Below the pieces are notes generated by a model, which saw only the letters and a program-made list of their open reading frames with translations, did not search any database and was not told where the DNA came from. Positions 1 through 64,000 of a stretch of 64,000 nucleotides of DNA are shown piece by piece (the first letter of the stretch is position 1; each line of letters begins with the position of its first letter). Both the position numbers and the translations under genes were made by a program. This DNA comes from Niastella populi (GTDB taxonomy: Bacteria; Bacteroidota; Bacteroidia; Chitinophagales; Chitinophagaceae), in the NCBI RefSeq assembly GCF_002078015.1, contig NZ_LWBP01000185.1:1-64000 (forward strand). The letters run 5' to 3'.

Positions 1-1626
1 GGTTGCGACAGCACGGTAACGCTGAATCTGGTGGTGAACTTATCGACCACCATTGTCACCCAGCCAGGTAACGCATCGGTCCTTATAGGTGATAACGCCA
101 GCTTTGCGGTATCGGCAAATGGCACAGGTGCCCTGAATTATCAATGGCAGGTAAATACCGGCAGCGGATTTGTAAATATTTCCAACGGAAGCGTGTATAA
201 CGGGGTCGATGCTGCTACACTCAACATTACCAATGTTCAGCCCGGTATGAACAGTTACCTATATCGTTGCATTGTTACAGGCGCTTGTGCACCATCAGCA
301 ATCACTAACGATGCCCAATTGACCGTAAGTAAACGTCCGCAGACAATCAATTTACCTGCCCCCGCAAATGGCAGCGTGGTTACTGTTACTTACGGCGATA
401 ATCCGTTCAGTGCGGCGGCCACCGCAAGTTCAGGTTTGCAGGTAAATTATAGCAGCAGTAACAATGCCGTAGCTGTCATCGATGCTAACGGGCAAGTAAG
501 GATAACGGGAGCAGGTTCGGCATTAATCGCCATTGAGCAGCCTGGTGATAATATGTATGCAGTTGCTCCAACGCTGCTATTTAATGTTCATGTGAATAAA
601 AAAGACCTGTATGTGCAAGGCGACGATAAATCAAGACCATATGGTGAAGCAAACCCTGCACTTTCAATGACCTATACCGGGTTTGTAAACGGAGAGGATG
701 CTTCAGTGATCACAGAGCCGGCCATTGCTACTACAGTTGATATAACTACCAACCCGGGTACTTACCCCATAACATTAAGCGGGGGAGCGGCAGTTAATTA
801 CAACCTGGTAATTACCAACGGAACATTTACGGTTACAGGGGCGCGCGTGTTTATCACTGAACACCCGCAGAACCAGCAGGCTTGTGAAGGAAAACAGGTT
901 TCGTTCACTGCTAAAGCAACTGCCGCGAGTATATTGGTAACAATTGCCTATCAGTGGGAAGAAAGTAATGATGGCAGCAACTGGCAGCCTGTAGCCGGGG
1001 CAACCGCTGAAACCCTCACTATTGATGCAACTGCCGGCCGTTTTATACGTTGTGTTATTCTGGCGCCAGGCACACAGGACCCAACCGGGGTGGCTTTCTT
1101 TACTGTGAATCCATTGCCCGGTGTATGGGCTACTAAATCGAACGATCTTGATTGTAATGTAGCCAGTACAAAACTAAATGCCGGCGGCGCCGTAACCTAT
1201 GCCTGGTCTCCTGTTACCGGATTAAGCAACCCCCATATCCCTAACCCGGTGGCTTCGCCTGCAGACGACATAACGTACACGGTAACGGGAACCGATGCAA
1301 ATGGCTGTAAGAATACAGACAATGTCCGCATCGGGATATTAACCGTTAAGTCAGGAGAAAATGTAATGGCAAATGCTTTCACTCCCAATGGAGACGGTAA
1401 GAATGATTGCTTCGGCGTCAGGTTCTGGGGGGTAATACAAAAAATCGATTTCACTATATATAACCGGTTTGGCCAACGTGTGTTCATCACTACCACACCC
1501 GGCGCCTGCTGGGATGGCCGCTTTAACGGTGAGGCGCAACCATCTGGAACGTATGTGTATGCTATAAAGGCAATTACAAAGTGCGGTATTATTGAACGAA
1601 AAGGTACAGTTACCCTTATAAGATAG
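1..1626 (+). CDS. Ig/MBG-repeat surface protein with gliding-motility C-terminal domain (5' truncated by window edge)
   Basis: The frame is open from base 1, so the true start lies outside the window; 541 codons are visible. From the N side they hold an Ig-like module (about residues 14-112), a beta-sandwich stretch (120-205), an MBG-type module with the YGEANPALS hallmark (207-290), a second Ig-like module (290-378), a PKD-like stretch (385-455) and a C-terminal domain starting with NAFTPNGDGKND (about 458-541). That last domain is typical of Bacteroidota gliding-motility/CHU C-terminal domains, which are known T9SS export signals of the type B kind. The protein is therefore probably exported and surface attached, serving as an adhesin or matrix protein; this role is inferred. 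A hairpin follows it at 1757-1780. Confidence is high for the domain class and low for any specific role. Confidence 0.9.
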   Translation, partial: GCDSTVTLNLVVNLSTTIVTQPGNASVLIGDNASFAVSANGTGALNYQWQVNTGSGFVNISNGSVYNGVDAATLNITNVQPGMNSYLYRCIVTGACAPSAITNDAQLTVSKRPQTINLPAPANGSVVTVTYGDNPFSAAATASSGLQVNYSSSNNAVAVIDANGQVRITGAGSALIAIEQPGDNMYAVAPTLLFNVHVNKKDLYVQGDDKSRPYGEANPALSMTYTGFVNGEDASVITEPAIATTVDITTNPGTYPITLSGGAAVNYNLVITNGTFTVTGARVFITEHPQNQQACEGKQVSFTAKATAASILVTIAYQWEESNDGSNWQPVAGATAETLTIDATAGRFIRCVILAPGTQDPTGVAFFTVNPLPGVWATKSNDLDCNVASTKLNAGGAVTYAWSPVTGLSNPHIPNPVASPADDITYTVTGTDANGCKNTDNVRIGILTVKSGENVMANAFTPNGDGKNDCFGVRFWGVIQKIDFTIYNRFGQRVFITTTPGACWDGRFNGEAQPSGTYVYAIKAITKCGIIERKGTVTLIR

Positions 1627-1756
1627 GTTGTAGCTTTTTAAATATAATAATTAAAATAAGTGCAAACCATCTTCCTGCCGGGGGGTGGTTTTCAGTTAGC
1701 GGCTATCTGCAGCGTATTTCAGAATGATGTTTGGGCCGCAAACTGTTCAAAAGATG

Positions 1757-1780
1757 GCCGCCCCGTTTTACGGGGGCGGC
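1757..1780. terminator. GC-rich bidirectional terminator hairpin
   Basis: GCCGCCCC pairs with GGGGCGGC around a short T-rich loop. It lies between two convergent genes (surface protein ending at 1626, lyase-like gene ending at 1800). Short T-runs flank it on both strands, so it could serve both. The rest of 1627-1799 shows no credible gene. Confidence 0.7.
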
Positions 1781-1799
1781 TTATGAAATTTTTCAGTAA

Positions 1800-2540
1800 T
1801 TATTGCCCCACAGGTCCGTTCTTCCAGTACTTAACATTTTTCCAACGCGTCTCCGACCGTGACCCGCTGATATTGTAAACACCGCATTTGAAGTAATGGG
1901 TGGCATTGCCACGGTCGGCATAATTTCCCTTCAGTGTATTGTTGATATACACATAGATCCTGCCGTTGTCGGCATCATGCTGTACGTTCACGTGAATCCA
2001 TTTGTTGTAAGCGCTGGTCATTAACGTTTCATTGTCGTATCGTTTAATGGTGCCGCCGCTGGCCGAATGTATTTTCAGCATAATGGCCGTTGCATGGGTA
2101 GAACCGCCGAACACCTGCATAATATCGGTGCCTTTAGAGCCGGAAACGATATATACATCGCCTTCAAACTGGTGCCGGCCCGATGTATAGTTATTATTCA
2201 TGCGCAGTTCTGAGCGCGGCCCGGTAGAACACCCTTCATACTGGCATTCATCATCGGGATAGATCCAGAAGCGATGTTCTCCGCCTGAATAACTATAACG
2301 GCTCGATTGGGAAAGGTTCCACGGCGTTTGAATATTATAGGTATAGGATGTTTGCGTCCAGCCGCTGGTTGGATTGGCTTCGGTGTTTGCTTCCCTGCCT
2401 GAGATCGCCGCATCGTGTTGTGCAGCGGACGTTGCCGTTTTTCTACAGCTAACATACAGGAATGAAACAATAAGTAACAGGAATGACATGTGCATTAGGA
2501 ACAGCATGTATTTGCTGCCCTTCGATTGTTGATAATTCAT
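1800..2540 (-). CDS. Alginate-lyase-like (PL7 superfamily) lipoprotein
   Basis: The 246-residue protein has a long hydrophobic N-terminus ending in a lipobox (Cys32, preceded by LYVS), so it should be a lipoprotein. The rest resembles the beta-jelly-roll polysaccharide lyases of PL7/alginate lyase 2: an RSELR motif (Arg109-Arg113), a KIH triplet (156-158) and YFKCGVYN (216-223, matching the usual YFKxGxY). In PL7 enzymes the second motif is usually QIH or QVH with a catalytic Gln; here Lys replaces Gln, so substrate or activity may differ. The start could be Met1 or Met12 (SD-poor, as usual in Bacteroidota). The gene stands alone, is divergent from yceI-like and shares a terminator with the upstream surface protein. 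The family assignment is by motif only; a non-catalytic glycan-binding jelly roll is the alternative. Confidence 0.65.
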   Translation of the reverse strand: MNYQQSKGSKYMLFLMHMSFLLLIVSFLYVSCRKTATSAAQHDAAISGREANTEANPTSGWTQTSYTYNIQTPWNLSQSSRYSYSGGEHRFWIYPDDECQYEGCSTGPRSELRMNNNYTSGRHQFEGDVYIVSGSKGTDIMQVFGGSTHATAIMLKIHSASGGTIKRYDNETLMTSAYNKWIHVNVQHDADNGRIYVYINNTLKGNYADRGNATHYFKCGVYNISGSRSETRWKNVKYWKNGPVGQ

Positions 2541-2755
2541 CTGGCAAGTTTTTAATGATTAGAGAAAAATGGTATCGTTAATAAAAGGTAAGCAATGCAG
2601 GAAGGAGAAGGATGTGGTGAATTGGCATTTTATTCGGTTAAGTTGGCTTGTCATGTGGCAATAAGCCGCAGGGTGGGGGTCTGATTTTTGCAGAATTGAT
2701 GAGGCATTTTGAGTATGTGCAAATGATAATCAGTCCATAATAAAATCAACATGTT

Positions 2756-3427
2756 ATGAAAGTAAAAGCATTTCTGGTAATAGCCGGCTTTATAGCAATT
2801 TTAACATCCTGTGGCGGCGGCTCGCCAAAAGGCGATGATGCTACGATACAGGAAAAACAGGAAACGTCAGAAGCGACGGGAACGCAATTTGCGGTCGATA
2901 CAAATACTTCAACCATTCGTTTTATCGGTTACGGCGTTGGTAAGAACCATCCGGGTAAATTCAAAATTTCTTCGGGTACGGTAGCACTTGCCAACAATCA
3001 GATCACCGGTGGCAGTTTCACGATCGATATCAAATCGATGGACCTGGAACAAAAAGGCGGCATCTTCGATTCAAAATTACGTCCGCACCTGATGAGCGGT
3101 GACTTCTTCGATGCCGATAAATTCGGAACGGCAAAGTTCGAGATTACCGGTGTTCAGCCATACACGGAGAGCGGGTCAGATACATCTGTTGTAGCAGGCG
3201 CCAACTATATGGTAAGCGGTAACTTTACACTGAAGGATGTTACAAAGAATATAAGTTTTCCTGCGAAGATCGATCTCGACGGTAATACATTAAAAGCGAA
3301 GTCGAGCTTCGTTATCGACCGTACGCAATGGCAAATGCGTTATGGTAATGATAAAACGCTGGGCGATAAATTCATTTCAGAGAAGGTAGATGTTGAATTG
3401 GATCTGGAAGCCAAAAAGCAGAGGTAA
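2756..3427 (+). CDS. YceI-family lipoprotein
   Basis: This 223-residue protein has a signal peptide with lipobox ILTSC (Cys19) and then an acidic linker. A YceI-like lipocalin-type beta-barrel domain spans about residues 45-220. Features typical of the family are the opening (FAVDTNTSTIRFIGYG), the central D/E-rich strand with IKSMDLE, the segment GNFTLKDVTKNISFP, and the ending SFVIDRTQWQMRYG. YceI proteins bind isoprenoid-like lipids and act in the periplasm; the ligand here is unknown. The gene is monocistronic and ends in a clear terminator at 3447-3488. It is divergent from the lyase-like gene. Confidence 0.9.
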   Translation: MKVKAFLVIAGFIAILTSCGGGSPKGDDATIQEKQETSEATGTQFAVDTNTSTIRFIGYGVGKNHPGKFKISSGTVALANNQITGGSFTIDIKSMDLEQKGGIFDSKLRPHLMSGDFFDADKFGTAKFEITGVQPYTESGSDTSVVAGANYMVSGNFTLKDVTKNISFPAKIDLDGNTLKAKSSFVIDRTQWQMRYGNDKTLGDKFISEKVDVELDLEAKKQR

Positions 3428-3446
3428 CGTAAATGAATAACGAAAT

Positions 3447-3488
3447 AAAAGAGGCATCAGGCAAATGGCTGCTGCCTCTTTTGTTTTA
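3447..3488 (+). terminator. Rho-independent terminator after the YceI gene
   Basis: AAAAGAGGCA (3447-3456) pairs perfectly with TGCCTCTTTT (3473-3482), followed by TTGTTTT. It also lies just past the 3' end of the convergent GyrI-like gene and may work in both directions. Confidence 0.85.
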
Positions 3489-3499
3489 ATTGGTTTGTA

Positions 3500-4123
3500 T
3501 TAACGAACCGGTTCTCTCAATATCGTTTTTAATTTTTCAGGTGATGTTTTTCTGAAATCAGACAGGTAGATCTCGTGATGAAGCCCGTTTCTTGCCAAAT
3601 TGTTTTGTTCTGTAAAAGCGGCAATCTGCAACAAGGATTCCGGCTCAGTTGAAAAAGGCCCAACGTGTAACATCTGAACACATTTTCCTTCATTCATGGT
3701 AAAGTGTTGCACCTGGCCGGCCAGTTGTATGTTCTTCTTACTAATAACTGTTTGTTTCGCTGCCTCAATGTCTCCGGCCATTACAAAATCGGGCATCCTG
3801 ATGAGTAACCGGTACTCCCATTCGCTTCTTGGTACTTCAGTGGCGGCGGTTTTTATATTCTTACCGGGAAACCTGGTTTCATCGAACCACCACAAACCTT
3901 CGAGTTTTGAAACTACAAAGTCCATGTTTTGGGCTTTGTACACAAACTCTATGGTGTAAGCCGTGGAGTACAACGCCTCAATATTTTTTGCAAAAGCCGG
4001 GGCCGAAGGATCGCCTTTTCCCGTAAGCGAAATAAAATGAGCTTCACCGATGTTTACCAGTTCTGGTTTTGGTTTGGCGGTGAAATAGGTTTTGAATGCT
4101 TTCGTAAGATCGAGTTTATTCAT
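3500..4123 (-). CDS. GyrI-like small-molecule-binding domain protein
   Basis: I place the start at the ATG at 4121-4123 (MNKLDLTKAF); a purine-rich GGAAAAA lies just upstream. The frame stays open to 4243, but those extra 40 residues look non-coding. The 207-residue product resembles the single-domain GyrI-like/SOUL-type proteins of Bacteroidota, with an opening KxYFTAKPKPELVxI, a strand pair around FVVSKLEGLWWFDE, and a C-terminal part with MLHVGPFSTEPESL and NGLHHEIYLSDFRKT. Such domains bind small hydrophobic or cationic molecules; no DNA-binding domain is attached, so the molecular role is unknown. It converges on the YceI gene and is divergent from the sigma factor of cluster 1. Confidence 0.75.
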   Translation of the reverse strand: MNKLDLTKAFKTYFTAKPKPELVNIGEAHFISLTGKGDPSAPAFAKNIEALYSTAYTIEFVYKAQNMDFVVSKLEGLWWFDETRFPGKNIKTAATEVPRSEWEYRLLIRMPDFVMAGDIEAAKQTVISKKNIQLAGQVQHFTMNEGKCVQMLHVGPFSTEPESLLQIAAFTEQNNLARNGLHHEIYLSDFRKTSPEKLKTILREPVR

Positions 4124-4332
4124 TTTTTCCGGTTTTGTTCGTGCTGCAAAAATGACGGTACCTGCTGACAACCTTATGTCAGCAGGAATATAAAACTTAT
4201 GAGAGGTTTTCTTCAAGGGTTTTTCGCTAAGGGTTTTCCCCACTTTAGCATTGTTTAGCAGCTAAATGGAAAATTGAAAACAGGTGATATATGATTTTTA
4301 TTGTAATTTCAACGCTTCTGATCATATGGTGA

Positions 4333-4935
4333 ATGCTGGCCCCTGATTACGAACAATATACCGACAATTATTTACTGCAACAGCTCTCGCATAACGACCA
4401 GGCTGCATTTACCGTCATCTACCAACGTTACTGGAATTCACTGTTCAGGGAAGCCATGAATGTGTTGCGTTCGCAAAAAGAATCGGAAGATTGCGTGCAG
4501 GAAGTATTCGTTTCCTTATGGAAGCGAAGGGAATCCCTTTCTGTAACCACATCACTGGGCGCTTATTTACATACTGCCGTAAAGTATAAGTGTATAGATA
4601 TCATTGAACGGGATATGATCCGCGGGGGATACCTCGAAGATTTTACCAGCTACATGACCGGGCAGCAATCCCTGCCTTCCGTTGAAGAAGAGATGTATGC
4701 CCGCGACCTTGCCGCGAATATCGACCAGGTAATGGATAAAATGCCCAATAAAATGCGGGAGGTTTTCCGGTTGAGCCGGCAGGAGCACCTTTCGCACCGC
4801 GAAATTGCCAACCGGTTACACATCTCGGAGGAGACGGTAAAAAAGCAGATCTACCTGGCGCTTAAAATTTTAAAGTCGCATTTGGGCGATGCCTCCCTCG
4901 CTATGCTCATCGCCGCCACCTTTATTTGCAAATGA
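4333..4935 (+). CDS. ECF RNA polymerase sigma factor, cluster 1
   Basis: This 200-residue protein has the sigma-70 region 2 (about residues 24-92: DQAAFTVIYQRYW, SEDCVQEVFVSLWKRRE) and region 4 (about 130-180: MREVFRLSRQEHLSHREIANRLHISEETVKKQI). The order and length are those of the ECF subfamily found with FecR in Bacteroidota. A hydrophobic tail (LAMLIAATFI) follows, as is common in this subfamily. It is the first gene of a + strand set with FecR, SusC and SusD and probably drives expression of that receptor operon. The gap to the FecR gene is about 225 nt and holds no gene. Confidence 0.93.
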   Translation: MLAPDYEQYTDNYLLQQLSHNDQAAFTVIYQRYWNSLFREAMNVLRSQKESEDCVQEVFVSLWKRRESLSVTTSLGAYLHTAVKYKCIDIIERDMIRGGYLEDFTSYMTGQQSLPSVEEEMYARDLAANIDQVMDKMPNKMREVFRLSRQEHLSHREIANRLHISEETVKKQIYLALKILKSHLGDASLAMLIAATFICK

Positions 4936-5160
4936 TCTAAACATTTCAGGTTGTTGTTAAAACCGGAAGGGAAGACATGCAGTTTTGTATGCCTTTGATT
5001 ATCCGGCAGGTACGGCTTATTGTTGTTGCATGTATGAAGGCATCAAATTTTTTTTTTAAGAAATTGTAAATTCTTCTACCACCACCTTCTCTTTTTTCCG
5101 ACATAATATCAAATACCTGCCATATTTAATTTAACCTTAACCTTAAATGAATGATTGAAA

Positions 5161-6345
5161 ATGGATGCTAACCAATTCAGCGATCTGTTAAAACGCTATC
5201 AGCTTGGAACCTGTACCGAAGAGGAAAAGAAATGGGTGGAAGGCTGGTACAGTGAACGGCGCAACAACATATACAACCCGTTGACAAACGAGGAAGAAGC
5301 GCTTGCCGGCCAAAGGATCTACAGCAACGTAATGACTGTGCTTACATCTGAACCTCAGAAAAATGTAGTACCACTTTGGCGGCGCCCCGGCGCCTGGTGG
5401 GTAGCTGCCGGTACACTATTATTCATGGCCACCACCTGGTATTTTGTAATGAACGACAAACAGGTGACCACGCAAACGGTAGAAGTACAAAAGCCGGTTA
5501 TTCAGACCACAGTGGTGCCGGGTGGAAATAAAGCGGTACTAACACTGGCCGATGGGTCAACGATCGTGCTCGATAGCGCAGCCAATGGCGCGCTTACCCG
5601 GCAGGGCGCAACCATGATAATGAAGAAACAGGATGGTGAACTGGTATATAAAACGGAAGGCAGGCATGGGCAACAGGCTGTTGCCATGAACACTATCAGC
5701 ACCCCCCGTGGCGGCCAGTACCAGGTTATATTACCCGATGGCACCAAGGTATGGCTGAATGCTGTTACCGCATTGCGTTTCCCGGCCAGCTTCACCGGTA
5801 ATGAGCGGGTAGTTGAGCTCACAGGTGAAGCTTATTTCGAGGTGGCGCATCAGTCATCATCGAATGGAAAGGGAAACCGGCCTTTTGTTGTAAATATTAT
5901 TACCGCAGCCGGTGAAAACCGGGTAGAAGTGTTGGGTACACACTTCAATATCAAGGCATATAATGACGAAACTTCCATCAAAACAACCTTGCTGGAAGGT
6001 TCGGTAAAAATGAGTGGCCTGAAGGGACAGTACCTGATGAAGCCGGGACAGCAGGCGCAAATTGATCGCAGCGGTAAAATGGCATTGGATGAAGATGCCG
6101 ACGTAGAGGAAGCCGTTGCCTGGAAAAATGGGCGCTTCCAGTTCAACAATGCAAATGTTGAAGCGGTTATGCGCGAAATAGCGCGGTGGTACGATGTGGA
6201 AATAGAATATGTGGGAAAAGTGCCGGATGAAAAATTCGAAGGTGAAATACCACGCAACAGTAATATCACCGAGGTATTTAAAATTCTGGAACTGAGCAAT
6301 GTGCATTGCAAAATAGAAGGTAAAAAAATTAAGGTGCTGCCATAA
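5161..6345 (+). CDS. FecR-family anti-sigma factor, cluster 1
   Basis: The start is the ATG at 5161 (MDANQFSDLL); a TTG two codons upstream is less likely. The product is 394 residues. It has a short cytoplasmic N-terminal part (about 1-75), one transmembrane helix (about 82-98, WWVAAGTLLFMATTWYF), the FecR domain (about 175-280, STPRGGQYQVILPDGTKVWLNA) and a C-terminal DUF4974-like domain (about 310-390, FQFNNANVEAVMREIARWYDV). FecR proteins hold an ECF sigma factor at the inner membrane and relay a signal from an outer-membrane receptor with an STN domain. Both partners are adjacent here. Confidence 0.94.
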   Translation: MDANQFSDLLKRYQLGTCTEEEKKWVEGWYSERRNNIYNPLTNEEEALAGQRIYSNVMTVLTSEPQKNVVPLWRRPGAWWVAAGTLLFMATTWYFVMNDKQVTTQTVEVQKPVIQTTVVPGGNKAVLTLADGSTIVLDSAANGALTRQGATMIMKKQDGELVYKTEGRHGQQAVAMNTISTPRGGQYQVILPDGTKVWLNAVTALRFPASFTGNERVVELTGEAYFEVAHQSSSNGKGNRPFVVNIITAAGENRVEVLGTHFNIKAYNDETSIKTTLLEGSVKMSGLKGQYLMKPGQQAQIDRSGKMALDEDADVEEAVAWKNGRFQFNNANVEAVMREIARWYDVEIEYVGKVPDEKFEGEIPRNSNITEVFKILELSNVHCKIEGKKIKVLP

Positions 6346-6510
6346 GAGAAAACGGGTGCTACACCCGGGGACCATTAGTGTATGTAACTGCGAAAAATTG
6401 ATTATTAACCAAAACTCAACCAAAACAAACACACGATGAAAACCTGACCAAACTATTCATTGACTGCCTTACATAACAAAGCCGGAAGCGCTGGAACGCA
6501 ACCGGCCTAA

Positions 6511-9500
6511 ATGGGCAAACTCTGTAAAAGCGTCGAAACTGTTATTTGTTTACCCAATTTTAAAAGTATGATTTTTACCATTCTTTGCCAAGTGGTACTG
6601 CGTCGCCGTGGTATACCACAACGGGCAAAGTCCAAAACTATTCTGGTTATGAAGTTAACCGCTGTTTTATTGTTGGCGGGCTTCTTACAGGTTTCTGCAG
6701 CGGGATTTTCGCAAACTGTTACCGTTTCAAAGGAAAACATCCCATTGCAGCAGCTTTTCAGGGAAATAAAGAAGCAAACAGGGTACGTGTTCTTTTATAA
6801 CATGCGACTGTTAAAGAAAACGCATGCTGTAAATATCGACGTAAAGAATAAGCCGCTAAAAGAGGTGCTGGATCAGGTCTTTATTGCGCAACCTGTAACA
6901 TACAGTATTGTGAATAAAACTGTTGTGGTAAGCGAAAGAGCTGCTCCGCCGCCCATGCCAATTGGTGAAACAAAGCCCGATACGGTGCCGTTGCTCGAAG
7001 TGCATGGCAAGGTGGTCGATGAAAGCTCGGGCACACCGGTTGTGGGCGCCAATGTAGTGACAAAAGGCAATCAATTCGGTACTACAACCGATGTAAACGG
7101 TGCTTTTACCATTAAGGCGAAACGTGGCGCGGTACTCACCATCAGTTATGTGGGTTTTGAAAATCAACAGGTAACTGTAAAGGAAAATATGCAGTTATCG
7201 GTAAAGATGAAAAACAGCAAAACGCCCATGACCGATGTGGTGATCACCGGTTACCAGCAGATCAAAAAAGAAAGTTATACAGGAAACGCGGTTACCGTAA
7301 CAGGCGATGAACTGAAGCGGGTGAATCCGATAAATATTTTACAAAGTATACAGGCATACGATCCTTCCTTTCAGGTACAACAGAATAACTTATTCGGTTC
7401 AAACCCCAATGCGCTTCCCAATGTAAATATTCGGGGTTCGGCTTCATTGCCAACAGGTTCCGAAGGGGTGTTAACCCGCAACAACCTGGCCGGTAATGTG
7501 AACCTGCCCACTTTTATTCTCGATGGTTATGAAGTTGGTGTTGAAAAAGTATACGATATGGATGTGAACCGCATTCAGTCGATCACCATCCTTAAAGATG
7601 CGGCTGCCACAGCCGTATATGGTTCCCGTGCCGCCAATGGCGTATTGGTGATCACCACCAAGGCGCCGGCAGAAGGAAAGCTGCAGGTGTCGTACAATAC
7701 CGATCTTACAGTTAATGCGCCCGATCTTACCGGTTATAGTGTATTGAACGCAGCTGACAAACTGGAATATGAAAGACTGGCCGGGTTATATGAGGAGGGT
7801 TTCGGTGGAATAACCAGAGATGATCTGGAGGAGATCTATTATAAAAAGTATTCGAATGTAATAGCCGGTGTGAACACCTACTGGTTGTCGCAGCCGGTAA
7901 AAACTGCCTTTGCACAAAAGCATTCCATGTATATTGAAGGTGGAAGCGGCGCCATTCGCTACGGTATCGATCTGCGTTATCAAACCCAGCCGGGTGTAAT
8001 GAAGGGATCGGGCCGCAACAGGTATGGCATTGGCAGTGAGCTTACCTATACCCCTAACAGAAGGTTTACATTCAGGAACAAACTTACCATTACCGGGGTA
8101 GATGGTACCGAATCGCCCTATGGCAACTTCTCCAACTATGTAAGAATGAACCCCTACTACCCTAAAACCGACTCTGCAGGCCATATTATTCAGGGGGTGG
8201 ACGAATGGCTGGTAGATACCAAACAACAGAATAATCAGTATGTGATCAAAGCGGTATTGAACCCGTTGTATAACTCAACACTCAGCAATTTTAATAAGAA
8301 CAAGTATTTCGAGATGATCGATGCGTTTTCCGCCGACTGGACAATAACCGGCGCCTTTCGGTTACGCACATTGATTAGTGTTACCAAACGTAAGTACAAT
8401 ACCGATATCTTTACTTCGCCGCGCGCCAATGAATTCTATTTTTATGATGCCAACCGGTTAAAAGAGCGCGGTAGTTATTTTTTTAGCAATACCGATGAAA
8501 CGATCCTCGATGGGAATGCTACATTAAACTATAACAAACAACTCGGCGATCATTTCCTCAACCTGGCGGCAGGCGCAAATATCCGCAATTATACCAGCGA
8601 TTTCAAAAGCATGACCGCTATAGGGTTTTCGAACGACCGGTTCACCAATATTGCCTTTGCCAACAGCTATGCACTGAATAGTTCTCCCTTTGCCGATTAC
8701 CAGCTCGAAAGGTTGTTCGGTTCATTCGCTTCACTGAACTATTCGTACAGAAATAAGTATATGGCCGATCTGTCGGTAAGGTTAGACGGTTCTTCCAAAT
8801 TCGGAAGTGAAAATAAAACAGCGCCATTCTGGGCCTTTGGCATTGGCTGGAATGCGCACAGGGAAGGTTTTTTACTGAACAGCGCTATCAGCATGTTGAA
8901 GCTGAGAGCAAGCGTTGGCCAAACAGGTTCGGTATCATTCCCTGCATATCAGGCAAAAACAACCTATGATTATTATACCGGCAACTGGTACTCAACCGGC
9001 ATCGGGGCTGCGGTGAACAATTATGGCAATGAGTCACTGAAATGGCAAAAGACCGATAACTATGAAGTAGGGGTGGACCTCGGATTGCTGAACGACAGGA
9101 TATTTGTCAGTGCAAGGTATTACGAAAAAATAACGCATGGATTGTTGGCCGATGTCATTTTGCCCCCCTCAACCGGTTTTATCTCCTATAAGGAAAACCT
9201 CGGCGATATGAAAAACACCGGCGCCGAGCTGAATCTTAAGGGTACGGTATTTAAAAACCGCGACTGGACGGTGAACCTTACCGCCAATATGGCCCGCAAT
9301 AAGAATGTAATACTGAAAATTTCCAACGCACTGAAAGCATACAACGACAAAGCCGACCAGGAGCAGATAAAGGATGAATATAAAGCAACACCATTATTGC
9401 GCTTCAACGAAGGCCAGTCATTGAATACTATTTATACAGTACGGTCAATGGGTATCGATCCTGAAACCGGAAAGGAAATATATATAGACAGGAATGGTAA

Positions 9501-10002
9501 ATATACCTATGATTATAATGTAAGGGATATAGTGCCGGTTGGCGACAATACGCCTAAAGCTTATGGTTTTTTTGGCGGCAATATCGGGTATAAACGCTTT
9601 TTATTGAATGTGAACTTCTACGGCCGCTTCGGGGGTAAAGAATACAATCAAACTGTGGTTGACCGCATCGAGAATGCCGATCCACGCGATAACGTAGACA
9701 GCAGGGCGCTGTCGCAAAGATGGAAACAACCGGGCGATAAAGCATTGTATAAGAACATTGCAGAAATAGGCCAGTCGAGAGCCAGCGAACGGTTTGTGCA
9801 AAAAGACAATGTGCTGGAACTGCAATCGGTTTACCTGTCGTACGATTTTGAAAATGCCATTTACAGCAAACTGGCTATGCGAAACCTGCGGGTGGCCTTT
9901 ACCATGAACGACATTGGCCGTTGGGCAACTATGCAAACAGAGCGGGGGATTGCTTATCCTTTTGCCAGAAGTTTTACATTTTCCATTCAAACAAGCTTTT
10001 AA
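6511..10002 (+). CDS. SusC/RagA-family TonB-dependent receptor with STN domain, cluster 1
   Basis: This 1163-residue outer-membrane receptor has a positively charged leader and signal peptide; the first ATG is used here, but Met47 (MKLTAVLLLAGF) is an alternative start. An STN domain follows (about 70-135), then a CarboxypepD-regulatory-like beta domain (about 163-245), a TonB plug (about 255-385, with ILKDAAATAVYGSRAANGV) and the 22-strand barrel up to the terminal FxFSIQTSF. SusC proteins import ligands captured by the SusD lid, powered by TonB. The STN domain fits signalling to the neighbouring FecR. SusD starts 9 nt downstream, so the two are co-transcribed. The ligand is not evident; the accessory lipoproteins give no glycan-specific hint. 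Confidence 0.95.
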   Translation: MGKLCKSVETVICLPNFKSMIFTILCQVVLRRRGIPQRAKSKTILVMKLTAVLLLAGFLQVSAAGFSQTVTVSKENIPLQQLFREIKKQTGYVFFYNMRLLKKTHAVNIDVKNKPLKEVLDQVFIAQPVTYSIVNKTVVVSERAAPPPMPIGETKPDTVPLLEVHGKVVDESSGTPVVGANVVTKGNQFGTTTDVNGAFTIKAKRGAVLTISYVGFENQQVTVKENMQLSVKMKNSKTPMTDVVITGYQQIKKESYTGNAVTVTGDELKRVNPINILQSIQAYDPSFQVQQNNLFGSNPNALPNVNIRGSASLPTGSEGVLTRNNLAGNVNLPTFILDGYEVGVEKVYDMDVNRIQSITILKDAAATAVYGSRAANGVLVITTKAPAEGKLQVSYNTDLTVNAPDLTGYSVLNAADKLEYERLAGLYEEGFGGITRDDLEEIYYKKYSNVIAGVNTYWLSQPVKTAFAQKHSMYIEGGSGAIRYGIDLRYQTQPGVMKGSGRNRYGIGSELTYTPNRRFTFRNKLTITGVDGTESPYGNFSNYVRMNPYYPKTDSAGHIIQGVDEWLVDTKQQNNQYVIKAVLNPLYNSTLSNFNKNKYFEMIDAFSADWTITGAFRLRTLISVTKRKYNTDIFTSPRANEFYFYDANRLKERGSYFFSNTDETILDGNATLNYNKQLGDHFLNLAAGANIRNYTSDFKSMTAIGFSNDRFTNIAFANSYALNSSPFADYQLERLFGSFASLNYSYRNKYMADLSVRLDGSSKFGSENKTAPFWAFGIGWNAHREGFLLNSAISMLKLRASVGQTGSVSFPAYQAKTTYDYYTGNWYSTGIGAAVNNYGNESLKWQKTDNYEVGVDLGLLNDRIFVSARYYEKITHGLLADVILPPSTGFISYKENLGDMKNTGAELNLKGTVFKNRDWTVNLTANMARNKNVILKISNALKAYNDKADQEQIKDEYKATPLLRFNEGQSLNTIYTVRSMGIDPETGKEIYIDRNGKYTYDYNVRDIVPVGDNTPKAYGFFGGNIGYKRFLLNVNFYGRFGGKEYNQTVVDRIENADPRDNVDSRALSQRWKQPGDKALYKNIAEIGQSRASERFVQKDNVLELQSVYLSYDFENAIYSKLAMRNLRVAFTMNDIGRWATMQTERGIAYPFARSFTFSIQTSF

Positions 10003-10011
10003 ATCTGTGGT

Positions 10012-11502
10012 ATGAAAAATATTATCTGGATCGCGGTTATATTACTCGGATTGTCATCGTGCAAAAAATGGCTCGATGTAACACCGGTATCGCAGGTGCC
10101 CGAAGAAGACCTGTTTAAGACCCAGGAAGGTTTTGAAGAGGCAATTAACGGTGTGTATACGATTTGTACCCATATGAACCTGTATGGGTACCAACTGAGC
10201 ACCGGTTTTCCTGAAGTGCTGGCGCAGAACTACAGCTGGCCGGGTGATGATTTGCTGAACTTTAAGCAAACCAGCCAGTACAATTATAAAGATCCCTATT
10301 TTATTGCCCGCAAGGATACTGCCTGGACCCGTTTGTACAATGCCATAGTAAACTGCAATCTTATTCTTAAAAACCTGGAAACGAATAAGGATGTGCTGCC
10401 GGCCGACCGGCAGGCGCTTATAAAGGCGGAAGCCCTGGCTTTGAGAGGATATTTACATTTTGACGTGTTGCGTTTGTTTGCGCCTTCTTTCAAGAACGGC
10501 GCGGGCATAAAGGCAATTCCTTATGTTACTGAATTTTCGAATAAGGTTACTCCGTTGTCGACTGTAACGGAGGTGTTGACAAAGATCATAACAGACCTGG
10601 AAGAGGCTAAAAACCTGATACGGCCTGTTGATCCTATTCTTACAGCTGAATACATTCCCAGCTATCCCGACGATGCAGACAAAGTTAATGAGCCCGATGT
10701 AATTCCTGAAGAAGAACGGTCGGGCAGTCTTTTCCTGCAGAACCGCCGGCACCGCCTGAATTATTATGCCATTTGCGGTGAACTGGCAAGAGTGTATTTG
10801 TACCAGGAAAAAAACAGTGAGGCGTTGGCCAATGCGCGCGAAGTGATCGAATCAAAGAAATTTCCGTGGACGACATTTAAATATTTCTATGAGCCAGACC
10901 CCAAATACAAAGACCGCATAATGTACAAGGAGCTGCTGTTTGGCTGGTATGTGCCGAATATAAAGGATACGCTGGCCAGGCGCTTCAACAGCGGAATTTC
11001 TGGTTTTATTATAGAGGAGAATGCCGCAAATGTTTTGTATGAGGCGGGAAGTTCGGGCGGTGATGACTGGCGTTATAAGAACTGGTTTATTCCCGGTGCC
11101 GGCTCCGGAACTATCAAGTGGTATGAATTGCAGAAATACAAACGCGATTTCGAGCGTAACCTCCATTACCTGATGCTGCCTGCCATCAGGCTTTCTGAAA
11201 TGTATTACATAGCTGCGGAAGCTGCATACGATTCCGATCCTGCCGGGGCAGTTGACTATTTAAATCTGGTGCGGCATAACCGTGGTTATATTGTTGATCT
11301 TACCGTGTCGGATAAGGCCACATTCATAGATGAACTGGTAAAGGAGGCCCGCAAGGAATTTTATGGCGAGGGGCAGATCTTTTTTATGTACAAAAGATTG
11401 AACAGGAACATACCAACCCTGTTGGGCGGCAGCACCCCCGCTTCTGACAAGATCTTTGTAATGCCGCTTCCTGACAATGAAATTGAATTTGGTAACCGTT
11501 AA
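10012..11502 (+). CDS. SusD/RagB-family nutrient-binding lipoprotein, cluster 1
   Basis: This 496-residue protein has lipobox LSSC (Cys17), the N-terminal SusD hallmark (VSQVPEEDLFKTQEGFEEAINGVY), TPR-like helices (EALALRGYLHFDVLRLFAP) and a C-terminal part with RLSEMYYIAAEAAY and EARKEFYGEGQIFFMYKRL. SusD proteins cap the SusC barrel on the outside of the cell. It is placed 9 nt after SusC and 15 nt before the DUF4843 gene. Confidence 0.95.
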   Translation: MKNIIWIAVILLGLSSCKKWLDVTPVSQVPEEDLFKTQEGFEEAINGVYTICTHMNLYGYQLSTGFPEVLAQNYSWPGDDLLNFKQTSQYNYKDPYFIARKDTAWTRLYNAIVNCNLILKNLETNKDVLPADRQALIKAEALALRGYLHFDVLRLFAPSFKNGAGIKAIPYVTEFSNKVTPLSTVTEVLTKIITDLEEAKNLIRPVDPILTAEYIPSYPDDADKVNEPDVIPEEERSGSLFLQNRRHRLNYYAICGELARVYLYQEKNSEALANAREVIESKKFPWTTFKYFYEPDPKYKDRIMYKELLFGWYVPNIKDTLARRFNSGISGFIIEENAANVLYEAGSSGGDDWRYKNWFIPGAGSGTIKWYELQKYKRDFERNLHYLMLPAIRLSEMYYIAAEAAYDSDPAGAVDYLNLVRHNRGYIVDLTVSDKATFIDELVKEARKEFYGEGQIFFMYKRLNRNIPTLLGGSTPASDKIFVMPLPDNEIEFGNR

Positions 11503-60352: not shown

Positions 60353-61081
60353 TCACGGTTGCGCTTCCGCTTTACGCATATGATAAGCCATTTTTGCGGT
60401 GAAACCCAGTTTGCGAATGAGGCGGTAATTCACTACAGCGCCAACGGGAGCACCTATCAGCGGTATGAGTTGTGCGAGTTTCGCCAGATCGATATAATCT
60501 CTGTACTCCTGTTGAAAACTGCGCCATTCGAACTGGTTGATATCGGCGGGAAGGCTTTTCGATTTTTCATCCCAGTTCTTCATTTCCATAAATACATTTC
60601 GCCTGTGTTGGGCAGATGAAAAGGCAAGCTGGAAAATATGCAGAATATACACCCGCTCGCGATAGTCGTTCACCGGGAAACCATAAAGGGATGCGATCTC
60701 GAACAGCAGTTTGATCTTTATCGCAATCAGCAACGGGAAATCTGCAAGTCCCAGTAATATACCGCCCGCCCCGGTAATAGCGCCTTCGGCTGCTGCCGTG
60801 GTGCGGTATTTCTTTATTGTTTCTTCAACTTTGCGGTCGGTTTCTATGAGCGCAAGGCGTGTTTTATTATTGCGGGTAGTGAGTTTGGCGCCAAACAGCA
60901 CGCCCCTGATCATTTGTTTTATGGTGGTGGTAATTACCTGGTGCACTTTTTCCGGTATGATGCTGTTGATCTTGTCCTGTGCGCTTTTCGACAGCCTGTT
61001 GAGAATGCCGGGCCGCCGCATCATTTTCCGCTGCCAGGTTTGCAGCTCACGCATCATTATGTGCTCGTAGGTTGTTGTCAT
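60353..61081 (-). CDS. EcsC-family protein
   Basis: This 242-residue protein has EcsC-family features: an N-terminal helical part (HIMMRELQTWQRKMMRRPGILNRLSKSAQDKINSIIPEKV), a central glycine-rich hydrophobic stretch (about 98-130, EGAITGAGGILLGLADFPLLIAIKIKLLFEIASLYG), and a C-terminal IPLIGAPVGAVVNYRLIRKLGFTAKMAYHMR. EcsC proteins are poorly understood and are encoded with an ABC transporter in Bacillus, but occur alone in Bacteroidota. It is divergent from the caspase-subtilase gene. Confidence 0.88.
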   Translation of the reverse strand: MTTTYEHIMMRELQTWQRKMMRRPGILNRLSKSAQDKINSIIPEKVHQVITTTIKQMIRGVLFGAKLTTRNNKTRLALIETDRKVEETIKKYRTTAAAEGAITGAGGILLGLADFPLLIAIKIKLLFEIASLYGFPVNDYRERVYILHIFQLAFSSAQHRRNVFMEMKNWDEKSKSLPADINQFEWRSFQQEYRDYIDLAKLAQLIPLIGAPVGAVVNYRLIRKLGFTAKMAYHMRKAEAQP

Positions 61082-61446: not shown

Positions 61447-64000
61447 ATGTCAAATGCGTATTCACTCCACCTCGGGCTGAACAATGTAGATCCTGATCAT
61501 TACGACGGCTGGAACGGCCAGTTGTATTGTTGTGAGAACGACGCGCTGTTCTATCATGAAATGGCAGAACGGGCCGGTATTAAGAACCGCAAATTGTTAT
61601 TGTCAGGCGGCAGCCAGGGTGCGGAAATGCCTGTTTCGGCCAACCTCGATAAATATCTTGAACAATTCAGCAAAACATTGAAAAGCGGCGATTTTCTTTT
61701 TATCACCTATTCGGGCCATGGCGGACAAATAAAGGACATAAACTTCGATGAAGAAGACAGTGTAGATGAAACCTGGTGCCTGTACGACCGGCAGTACCTC
61801 GATGATGAATTGTGGGAACATTTCAGCCGGTTCAAAAAAGGCGTTCGCATTCTTATGATCTCCGACAGCTGTCATAGCGGAAGCGTGGCGCGGGCGATCG
61901 ATTCGCCAAAAGATGCAGAAGTGGCCGGTTTGCTGGAAGATATCTTTAAGAAAATGAATCTGGTTACGCGCAATGCGCCAAAGGATATTACATTCAACTC
62001 ATACAGCAAACATAAAGAACAATATTACGGCCCCACGCACAAACCCATCGTTGTAAAGGAAGATATCCCGGCCACGGTATTGCTGCTGGGCGCCTGCCGC
62101 GATGAAGAGCTGGCCAGCGAATGGGACGGCTATGGACTGTTCACCAGTACCATCAGGAAAGTGCTGAGCATGAATAAAAGTATTGGCAGTTATGACGACT
62201 GGCACGAAAAGATTACACAGCAAATACCGGCCATTCAGCATCCTACGCTGTTCACTTATGGTTCGGGCGCTGATCTTTTCCGGAAGGAAAAGATCTTCCA
62301 GGTGGGTAATGGACAAAGTCCTTTCAGCTTTTTTGATCCCGAACAAAATACGGTTCCTGAAAAAGTGAAGGAGAACCTGCTTGTTGATTTTGGGAAAACC
62401 GCACCGCAATTGAGATCAACGGAGTATAAACCAGCGCAACATCTCAAACGCGATATGCCTGATACTCCTTCCATTCATTTAAAAGAAACAGCTCCCGATA
62501 CCACCAGTTCATGGGATGAAGCCTACAAAGCGTATTTTTCACTGCGGGCCGAACACCCTGAAGTTTTTGTTGAGCCCGATGTAAAAAGCAAATACCTGAA
62601 AGAATCACCGCTCTCCAAATCGGCCGATGGAAACAATTATATGTCTAACTGGCCCAAACCGCCCAATACGCTGGGCATAGATGAATTCATCTGGCACCTC
62701 GGCGATAACCATTCCCAGCTAAGAAAGGCGGCGCAAAGAGTAAAGGAGAAAATGAAATTAACCGATGTGCTGGATACGGTTCCAGACGACATGGTGAAAA
62801 TTGCGCACATCGATACGGGGTATATCCCTTCGCACCCGGCCACACCGAAATACCTGGTAAAAGATGCCGGCATCAGTTTCGTAGGCGGCGAACCCGATAA
62901 CAAGGGCACCGATATAATGCAAAACCGCATAAAGTTCCTCGAGCAGGATGGACATGGTTCTGCCACGTTGGCCATACTGGCGGGTAACTTCATAAAGAAA
63001 GAGGATGCCTATGCAGGTTATGAAGGTTTCTTTGGCGGCATACCATTCGCCAGAGTGATCCCTGTTCGCATTTGCGATACGGTTTACAATTCATTCAATG
63101 CAAACGATGTGGCCCGGGGTATTGAATATGCCATTGAAATGGGATGCGAAGTGATCTCCATGTCGATGGCCGGTTATCCAACGCGGCGGGTGGCCCGGGC
63201 GGTAAATAAAGCGTATGAGGCCGGCGTGGTGATTGTTACAGCCGCCGGTAATAATTGGGTAAAAGGCATCAGTAAACTAACGCCCAAAGCAGTAATGTAT
63301 CCTGCGCGGTTCGACCGCGTAATTGCTGCCTGCGGTGTTTGCTTTAATGAAAAGCCTTATGATTTTGCAGCGAACGAAGAAGAAATGAAGTTGCGTTCCG
63401 AAGGCGGCGATACCATGCAGGGTAACTGGGGGCCCGAAAAGGCAATGAGAACGGCATTGGCTGCGTATACGCCCAACCTGGCATGGGCCAACAATAATCC
63501 CAACAGCAAATACCGCTTTTCAAGAACCGGTGGCGGCACTTCATCAGCTACCCCGCAAATTGCGGCGGCCGCCGCATTATGGATCGCATATAACCGGCAG
63601 GAGCTGGCAGATAAACAATACAAAGGCACATGGAAACAGGCAGAAGCGGTGCGGCAGGCCCTGTTCCAGAGCGGTGGAATCGATTATCCCGGGTATAAAA
63701 AATATTACGGCAATGGCTCTTTAAAAGCAAGCGCAGCACTGGATGTTTCGGCCGATATTTTCAATATGGAATTGAAACAGGCAGAAGAAGCGTCGGTAAG
63801 TTTTTTGGGAATCGGTAAATTCGTATCACAATGGTTCCGGGCATTGCCTGCAAAATCGGCGCTTCCCGAAACAGTACCGCCCACCGATAAACAAATACAG
63901 GAAATGATGTCGGTTGAAATAATGCAGGTCATGTATAAAGACCCGGCGTTGTTCGAGTACCTCGATACGATTGACCTGGATGGCGCCGACGCAGATTTTT
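61447..64000 (+). CDS. Caspase (C14)-subtilase (S8) fusion protein, 3' end beyond the window
   Basis: One frame is open from ATG 61447 to the right edge (851 codons). An N-terminal caspase-like domain (about 1-265) has catalytic His91 (TYSGHGGQ) and Cys142 (ISDSCHSGS). A linker of about 150 residues is rich in charged and Pro residues. A subtilisin domain follows (about 440-770) with Asp456 (AHIDTG), His503 (DGHGSA), oxyanion Asn602 (AAGNN) and Ser699 (GGTSSATP). All catalytic residues of both proteases are present. No signal peptide is seen, so it should be cytoplasmic. A caspase of the metacaspase/orthocaspase type in the same chain as a subtilase suggests a protease cascade, possibly for regulated cell death or defence; this is inference. 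Confidence 0.88.
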   Translation, partial: MSNAYSLHLGLNNVDPDHYDGWNGQLYCCENDALFYHEMAERAGIKNRKLLLSGGSQGAEMPVSANLDKYLEQFSKTLKSGDFLFITYSGHGGQIKDINFDEEDSVDETWCLYDRQYLDDELWEHFSRFKKGVRILMISDSCHSGSVARAIDSPKDAEVAGLLEDIFKKMNLVTRNAPKDITFNSYSKHKEQYYGPTHKPIVVKEDIPATVLLLGACRDEELASEWDGYGLFTSTIRKVLSMNKSIGSYDDWHEKITQQIPAIQHPTLFTYGSGADLFRKEKIFQVGNGQSPFSFFDPEQNTVPEKVKENLLVDFGKTAPQLRSTEYKPAQHLKRDMPDTPSIHLKETAPDTTSSWDEAYKAYFSLRAEHPEVFVEPDVKSKYLKESPLSKSADGNNYMSNWPKPPNTLGIDEFIWHLGDNHSQLRKAAQRVKEKMKLTDVLDTVPDDMVKIAHIDTGYIPSHPATPKYLVKDAGISFVGGEPDNKGTDIMQNRIKFLEQDGHGSATLAILAGNFIKKEDAYAGYEGFFGGIPFARVIPVRICDTVYNSFNANDVARGIEYAIEMGCEVISMSMAGYPTRRVARAVNKAYEAGVVIVTAAGNNWVKGISKLTPKAVMYPARFDRVIAACGVCFNEKPYDFAANEEEMKLRSEGGDTMQGNWGPEKAMRTALAAYTPNLAWANNNPNSKYRFSRTGGGTSSATPQIAAAAALWIAYNRQELADKQYKGTWKQAEAVRQALFQSGGIDYPGYKKYYGNGSLKASAALDVSADIFNMELKQAEEASVSFLGIGKFVSQWFRALPAKSALPETVPPTDKQIQEMMSVEIMQVMYKDPALFEYLDTIDLDGADADF

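Follow-up and report, generated by a model that had tools for sequence, protein, structure and literature searches.

What does a bacterium do with a caspase and a subtilisin joined in one cytoplasmic protein? The question is raised by a gene of Niastella populi, here called A, at the end of the stretch of DNA analysed in this work (the window: 64,000 nucleotides (nt), positions 1 to 64,000 of the forward strand of contig NZ_LWBP01000185.1, assembly GCF_002078015.1). We find that A is real, conserved and rare, and is probably a variant of known caspase conflict systems. The answer we develop below, and hold to have about an even chance of being correct, is that A encodes a caspase-activated subtilisin zymogen within a multi-protease conflict module. 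Its parts are as follows.

61447..64000, + strand: gene A, consisting of C14 domain, propeptide-like linker, S8 domain and tail; 879 amino acids (aa), running 86 nt beyond the window
61447..62310, + strand: C14 caspase/metacaspase domain, residues 1-288 (His91 codon 61717-61719, Cys142 codon 61870-61872)
62368..62577, + strand: propeptide-like segment, residues 308-377 (beta-alpha-beta unit 343-377 ending in a conserved EP motif)
62596..62628, + strand: junction loop, residues 384-394 (K391 codon 62617-62619, candidate caspase cleavage site)
62677..63756, + strand: S8 subtilisin domain, residues 411-770 (first codon bases: Asp456 62812, His503 62953, Asn602 63250, Ser699 63541)
63757..64000, + strand: helical C-terminal tail, residues 771-879 (771-851 in the window)

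Both proteases lie in a single open frame that lacks internal stops and ends at contig position 64086, with 851 residues inside the window and the remaining 28 beyond its end. The start at 61447 (MSNAYSLHLGL) agrees with relatives, and an alternative in-frame ATG 90 nt upstream is also open. Residues 17-261 match Pfam Peptidase_C14 (E 1.6e-12, 48.1 bits against a cut-off of 21.4) and residues 449-757 match Peptidase_S8 (E 2.1e-24, 86.8 bits against 21.8). With a His/Cys dyad in SGHG and DxCHS motifs, and with an Asp-His-Ser triad, oxyanion Asn and subtilisin fold, the chain belongs to both families. H91, C142, D456, H503, N602 and S699 are invariant in all 34 aligned C14-S8 proteins (34 of the 47 fused loci described below; the others are a gene cut by the contig end, nine one-chain proteins and three with swapped domain order). 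A sequence-only reading of the window had proposed that the two proteases share one protein, that both catalytic sets are intact and that the product is cytoplasmic. The first two points are borne out by these data, and a decayed caspase is ruled out by the conserved dyad. The third agrees with the absence of a transmembrane-like stretch in A (highest 19-residue mean Kyte-Doolittle hydropathy 1.14) and with a chain that opens straight with the caspase domain. Asp32 and Asp140, which we take from metacaspase work to be the S1-pocket acids, are also invariant in the alignment.

The segment between the two domains looks like more than a mere spacer and, as modelled, resembles a subtilisin propeptide. 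The AlphaFold model places strands at residues 343-346 and 374-377 and a helix at 355-367, with block predicted local distance difference test (pLDDT) values of 71-83 at 341-380 and 41-73 at 301-340; W356 is invariant across the alignment, and E376 and P377 are conserved in at least 90% of it. VIA-align superposition on the pro-subtilisins 3wiu_A and 2zwp_A reaches down to residues 307/308 and aligns 342 and 338 residues respectively; related chains, which align only from their own residue 84, give 279-280. In this moderate-confidence model, residues 307/308-770 thus have the structure of an S8 domain together with its propeptide; by sequence, no match to the Pfam I9 propeptide family is found in A at E up to 1.

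The loop that follows, residues 384-394, is predicted to be disordered (pLDDT <50). Within it, K391 is the sole column between residues 287 and 435 that holds Lys or Arg in at least 85% of sequences (31 of the 34 C14-S8 proteins), and the three exceptions (L046, L048 and L073) carry a Lys or Arg no more than 2 residues away. In all 24 non-redundant segments, the distance from a basic residue to the invariant Trp402 falls within a single 4-residue window; shuffled segments reach a mean of 14.4 and a maximum of 20, with none of 2000 shuffles as high. The preceding residue is T, S or A in 27/34 sequences and the next is E, S or A in 26/34. Lys is also found at the junction in 3/3 forms with swapped domain order, and Lys or Arg in 9/9 one-chain forms (L068 read by eye). 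According to part of the literature on orthocaspases, these enzymes cleave after positively charged residues (PMC6426788). Because of this preference, the simplest reading of the conserved basic residue is a caspase cut that would release the subtilisin from its propeptide. The earlier suggestion that one domain may activate the other thereby gains a specific candidate, a propeptide-like linker with a conserved basic residue in the loop behind it.

We therefore propose that A acts in two steps, with a metacaspase-type C14 domain attached to a subtilisin zymogen whose propeptide-like residues 308-377 would be expected to block the S8 active site. An activated C14 domain (that of A itself in cis or in trans, or that of the downstream gene C) or the CHAT protease encoded by gene B would then cut after K391, which would free S8 from C14 and the propeptide and might turn it into a broad cytoplasmic executioner.

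Alternatively, K391 may be the site at which the subtilisin matures itself, the caspase part being a separate activity, an adaptor or a substrate of the subtilisin. Subtilases generally cut themselves at the pro/mature junction, so such a site would be nothing out of the ordinary, and S8 domains of this kind do occur without a fused C14, in 20 S8 relatives and in a free gene of the A family beside a C25 peptidase (L027/L100). However, the conserved basic column is seen only in caspase-fused forms, no junction column reaching 70% Lys or Arg in the 20 caspase-less relatives, and an adaptor would not need the caspase dyad that 34/34 proteins keep. We judge self-maturation unlikely, though well short of negligible. 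Other observations weigh against our own reading. Many of the 20 S8-only controls have scattered Lys or Arg at the junction, in a region that aligns badly, and this control is phylogenetically separate, with 17/20 outside the fused group. The relatives share ancestry, so that counts among them are not independent, and the relative placement of C14 and S8 in the model is unreliable (predicted template modelling score (pTM) 0.62).

The breadth of the fusion was assessed in genome contigs from 84,980 species, one genome per species, where the best 80 of 350 relatives correspond to 79 loci (L035-L113; L022-L024 were removed as the same contigs as L037, L036 and L035). C14 and S8 share one open reading frame (ORF) in 46 of these 79 loci which, with the window locus, makes 47, all in Bacteroidota. 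The domain order of A, which the sequence-only reading had singled out for such a search, is found in 35; nine are one-chain S8-C14-S8-hydrolase proteins and three are swapped S8-C14 forms. The fusion is uncommon even near N. populi: counting its own genome, any match to A occurs in 4/10 genomes of the genus (E 1e-10), 9/147 of the family (E 1e-10) and 6/395 of the class (E 1e-30), and matches covering both domains in 4/10, 4/147 and 3/395. Homologues are thus neither common nor, in the 34 aligned proteins, missing the caspase Cys or His, either of which had been named in advance as a reason to drop a role in cell death. When 68 S8 domains are placed in a tree, all 47 fused rows fall, with four others, into a group of 51 (Shimodaira-Hasegawa-like approximate likelihood ratio test (SH-aLRT) 100) in which all labelled rows are Bacteroidota. 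One-chain forms make up a single group (SH-aLRT 98), as do swapped forms (100); families are mixed, and the window row sits closest to those of Niastella sp. OAS944 and two Longitalea species.

The one-chain proteins (L062, L067-L070, L074, L076, L077 and L083) span 1569-1921 aa and are about 1900 aa long when complete; a 1777-aa one is cut by the contig end, and the 1569-aa one has its hydrolase in the next ORF. Their N-terminal S8 is recognised by profile or Pfam match in four (L074, L076, L030/L068 and L031/L069) and by motifs in all nine. A small unknown protein (121-162 aa, cluster c2) is encoded near 7/9 of these loci, L067 and L083 being the others. Among S8 relatives without a caspase, that of L027 (7077-10306) belongs to the A family, has a tail like that of A (compared by eye) and is directly followed by a Peptidase_C25 gene, which we take to encode another caspase-clan cysteine protease. 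In Acidobacteriota and other phyla, S8 relatives reach 1162-1229 aa (L086, L087, L093, L096, L099, L103, L108, L109 and L113), with ~700 residues past S8; in L086, the one scanned, Pfam finds nothing in this extension at E up to 0.05.

Strand and spacing indicate that A heads an apparent operon, A-B-C. Following the contig past the window, as had been suggested, reveals the last 28 residues of A and two downstream genes: B (352 aa, contig 64100-65158) begins 13 nt after A, and C (1087 aa, 65211-68474) begins 52 nt after B. The next gene belongs to the fatty acid hydroxylase family. Upstream, A is preceded by a divergent gene (60353-61081). In a Niastella relative, the upstream divergent gene (compared by eye) and the downstream hydroxylase likewise flank A and B, and C is absent. 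GC content is 0.485 in A and C, 0.449 in B, and 0.476 and 0.478 in the flanks, none of which stands out.

B is a CHAT protease, with a caspase-like fold and a His/Cys dyad. Its profile match is the CHAT-domain protein 8tl0 (E 1.5e-9), and the top fold match of the modelled Niastella copy (mean pLDDT 70.6) is the activated SAVED-CHAT filament (E 6e-10). All 7 aligned sequences keep His73 and Cys111. Pfam returns no CHAT match for B and C14 only weakly (E 0.063). SAVED-CHAT, whose CHAT protease takes part in the proteolytic cascade of a type III CRISPR system, is the best match of B in both fold and sequence; the Pfam scan shows no SAVED domain in B. C combines C14 (E 1.9e-18) with a DUF7379/PGAP1-like alpha/beta-hydrolase (E 7e-16) by Pfam, the latter being the sole DUF7379 match in the whole genome; its residues 310-815 have no Pfam match.

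Similar genes recur at the fused loci. Counting as a partner any gene fused to A or no more than 8 kb away, we found a hydrolase at 24/47 loci (21 by a DUF7379-type profile and three weak ones, L043, L045 and L049, only via c15, whose Pfam DUF900 match at E 0.011 is below cut-off), a second C14 at no fewer than 22/47, CHAT at 14/47, an nSTAND-like NTPase at 12/47 (nine belong to a single cluster, whose profile also picks up L048, L078 and L079) and MoxR at 4/47. At least one recognised partner is present at 38/47. Hydrolase, CHAT, nSTAND and MoxR are all absent from nine lone-C14 control loci, and 20 control loci with S8 but no C14 hold two hydrolases, one second C14 and one nSTAND. In the Chitinophaga layout, nSTAND and CHAT are divergent from C followed by A; in L054, the one scanned, nSTAND matches PF20703 at E 8e-34 and CHAT at E 1e-4, just under cut-off. 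C and A adjoin MoxR and vWA genes in L037, L061 and L072, and L056 reads A-C14-MoxR before the contig ends.

Some loci show further arrangements of these parts. Directly upstream of the C14-S8 gene in L048, one ORF (294-3953) joins C14 to an nSTAND family profile match (E 1.8e-15). In L098 (1383-11495, Chitinophaga sp. E66), the A, nSTAND and CHAT genes are each split into several ORFs, as if decayed together. Lone GSU0716-like caspases (L089, L090, L091, L094, L095, L105 and L106) are accompanied by conserved c5 (C14-related, 363-374 aa) and c6 (unknown, ~518 aa) genes; c6 precedes C14-S8 instead in L042, L045 and L049.

Because an nSTAND-like NTPase or a MoxR-vWA pair often adjoins the set in relatives, A would most likely belong to an NTPase-gated suicide or conflict module, in which B (CHAT) and C (C14 with a DUF7379 lipase-like hydrolase) could between them supply an initiator or amplifier and an executioner acting on membrane lipids. 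By analogy, the NTPase partners, the several caspase-fold proteases and the two putative executioners fit such a module, as do the patchy distribution and, close to the one-chain form of L030/L068, a helicase resembling SngC (E 4e-156); the two neighbours of this helicase have no PADLOC match, so a complete Shango system is not evidenced. More tentatively, and as something possible rather than probable, a STAND or MoxR NTPase may trigger CHAT and two caspases to release the subtilisin and a membrane lipase, making the whole a Bacteroidota cell-death machine built around a one-chain caspase-activated subtilisin zymogen.

The module has its own counter-evidence. No sensor NTPase adjoins the window operon: MoxR and vWA genes are absent among the ORFs at contig 58000-72086 around A, and the two nSTAND1 matches of the genome (one above cut-off) sit on other contigs. 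Nine of the 47 fused loci (L038-L041, L044, L057, L066, L073 and L075) have no recognised partner, so A may act without the module; L057 lies near a contig end, with part of a C-like gene upstream. The neighbours that L038-L041 have in common look ordinary. Whether such genes lie in ordinary loci, which had been named in advance as a further condition, thus has a mixed answer: 38 loci have partners and nine do not. We set aside the second C14 as a specific partner, given that c5 is found at 7/9 lone-caspase loci and goes unflagged by the C14 profiles of the partner count. C-type proteins lack both DxCHS and a hydrolase match in L059, L064 and L065 and a hydrolase match in L053 and L063, and only 5/9 one-chain proteins have the hydrolase serine motif. 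Finally, a comparison of defence-gene matches in the neighbourhoods is at most suggestive: 119 proteins near fused loci matched 109 PADLOC families at 1e-10 and 114 control neighbours matched 28, in tables without protein counts and from control genomes that differ from the fused-locus genomes. The former were drawn from 269 (287 eligible with module parts removed, less 18 dropped with three near-duplicate loci), the latter from 195 (18 lone-C14 or lone-S8 loci, whole stretch, c5/c6 kept); the tables list 25 families, the type I specificity models apparently all hit a single protein, and four control members match the caspase model.

These points leave room for a role outside phage defence and suicide, be it as an intracellular protease pair for general stress or quality control or as a developmental protease. 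The partnerless L038-L041 would suit it, as would the mobile-element scans: 0 of 50,697 phage records match A, a viral contig scan with A is also empty, and 23/72,556 plasmid records match partially, none across 80% of A. These scans speak against the reading of A as mobile-element cargo. A housekeeping role is nevertheless hard to square with the patchy presence in genomes of the genus (4/10), with the mixing of families in the tree, with nSTAND, CHAT, MoxR-vWA and hydrolase partners, or with the SngC-like helicase, and we consider it improbable. That the fusion arose by chance or in assembly has next to no probability: nothing was found in its favour beyond the fact that each domain is common by itself, and the 46 further one-ORF loci and the well-supported S8 group stand against it.

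How does a caspase-activated zymogen compare with known systems? The lone caspase GSU0716 of Geobacter sulfurreducens (3bij) is a 285-residue chain that, unlike A, has no subtilisin or propeptide. Parts of Kaur et al. 2020 (PMC7159879) describe MoxR-vWA ternary conflict systems in which caspase and alpha/beta-hydrolase go together, as they do here, with MoxR and vWA adjoining A in L037, L061 and L072 (MoxR in L056). Those parts do not mention a C14-S8 fusion, and 'subtilisin' occurs once in the main text, with trypsin and NucA. The likeness is incomplete, however, as the third component has no VMAP match and the MoxR-vWA genes of the N. populi genome lie on another contig, C215 (MoxR 61.5% and C14 41% identical to those of L056). 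The C215 operon (C215:11000-30999, 2812-10913, minus strand) encodes a 582-aa C14 protein, MoxR, vWA and a 1303-aa protein with a SLOG match; it is related to genes adjoining A in L056, L061 and L072 and possibly represents an undescribed MoxR-vWA ternary type, no VMAP family being among the Pfam matches of the third component in C215 or L061.

In Canu caspase-nuclease systems, as reported in part of Tuck et al. 2025 (PMC12799240), a caspase was shown experimentally to unlock a co-encoded pro-enzyme by proteolysis; in A the candidate pro-enzyme is instead a subtilisin that forms part of the caspase chain itself. The Pfam matches of A, B and C include no nuclease family, though one could be missed in the unmatched residues 310-815 of C. 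Fungal HET-Q2-like subtilase and CHAT proteases activate death as separate proteins acting on gasdermin, according to portions of PMC10989679, and no gasdermin is among the Pfam matches of A, B and C, the three proteins scanned. The two-gene EACC1-caspase system, with a gene for the EACC1 membrane protein 5' of its caspase, is not matched either: the gene upstream of A is divergent, C is preceded by B, and the 59.6 bits of C fall short of the cut-off of 140 for that caspase type. A survey of caspase homologues lists 71 domain types and 112 architectures (PMC3501461, in part); S8 is unmentioned in its section 8 and 'peptidase_S8' occurs 0 times in its main text, figures and supplements being outside this scope. 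In the open literature searched, consulted partly in excerpt, the C14-S8 fusion is undescribed, though figures and supplements could still mention one. What appears to be new here is the modelled alignment of the linker with subtilisin propeptides and the conserved Lys or Arg at the junction, in a loop predicted to be disordered.

Caspase-driven unlocking of other enzymes is familiar from animal cell death; Canu and type III CRISPR cascades are recent bacterial cases. If our reading of A is true, activator, inhibitor and executioner would share one polypeptide with a pinpointed, mutable site, K391; the more tentative cell-death machine, if real, would be a bacterial counterpart of the apoptosome or inflammasome with a built-in protease relay. 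A would allow a caspase-to-serine-protease relay to be tested directly in bacteria, and would join CHAT, caspase, subtilisin, lipase-like, STAND and MoxR parts in a single set that recurs in Bacteroidota.
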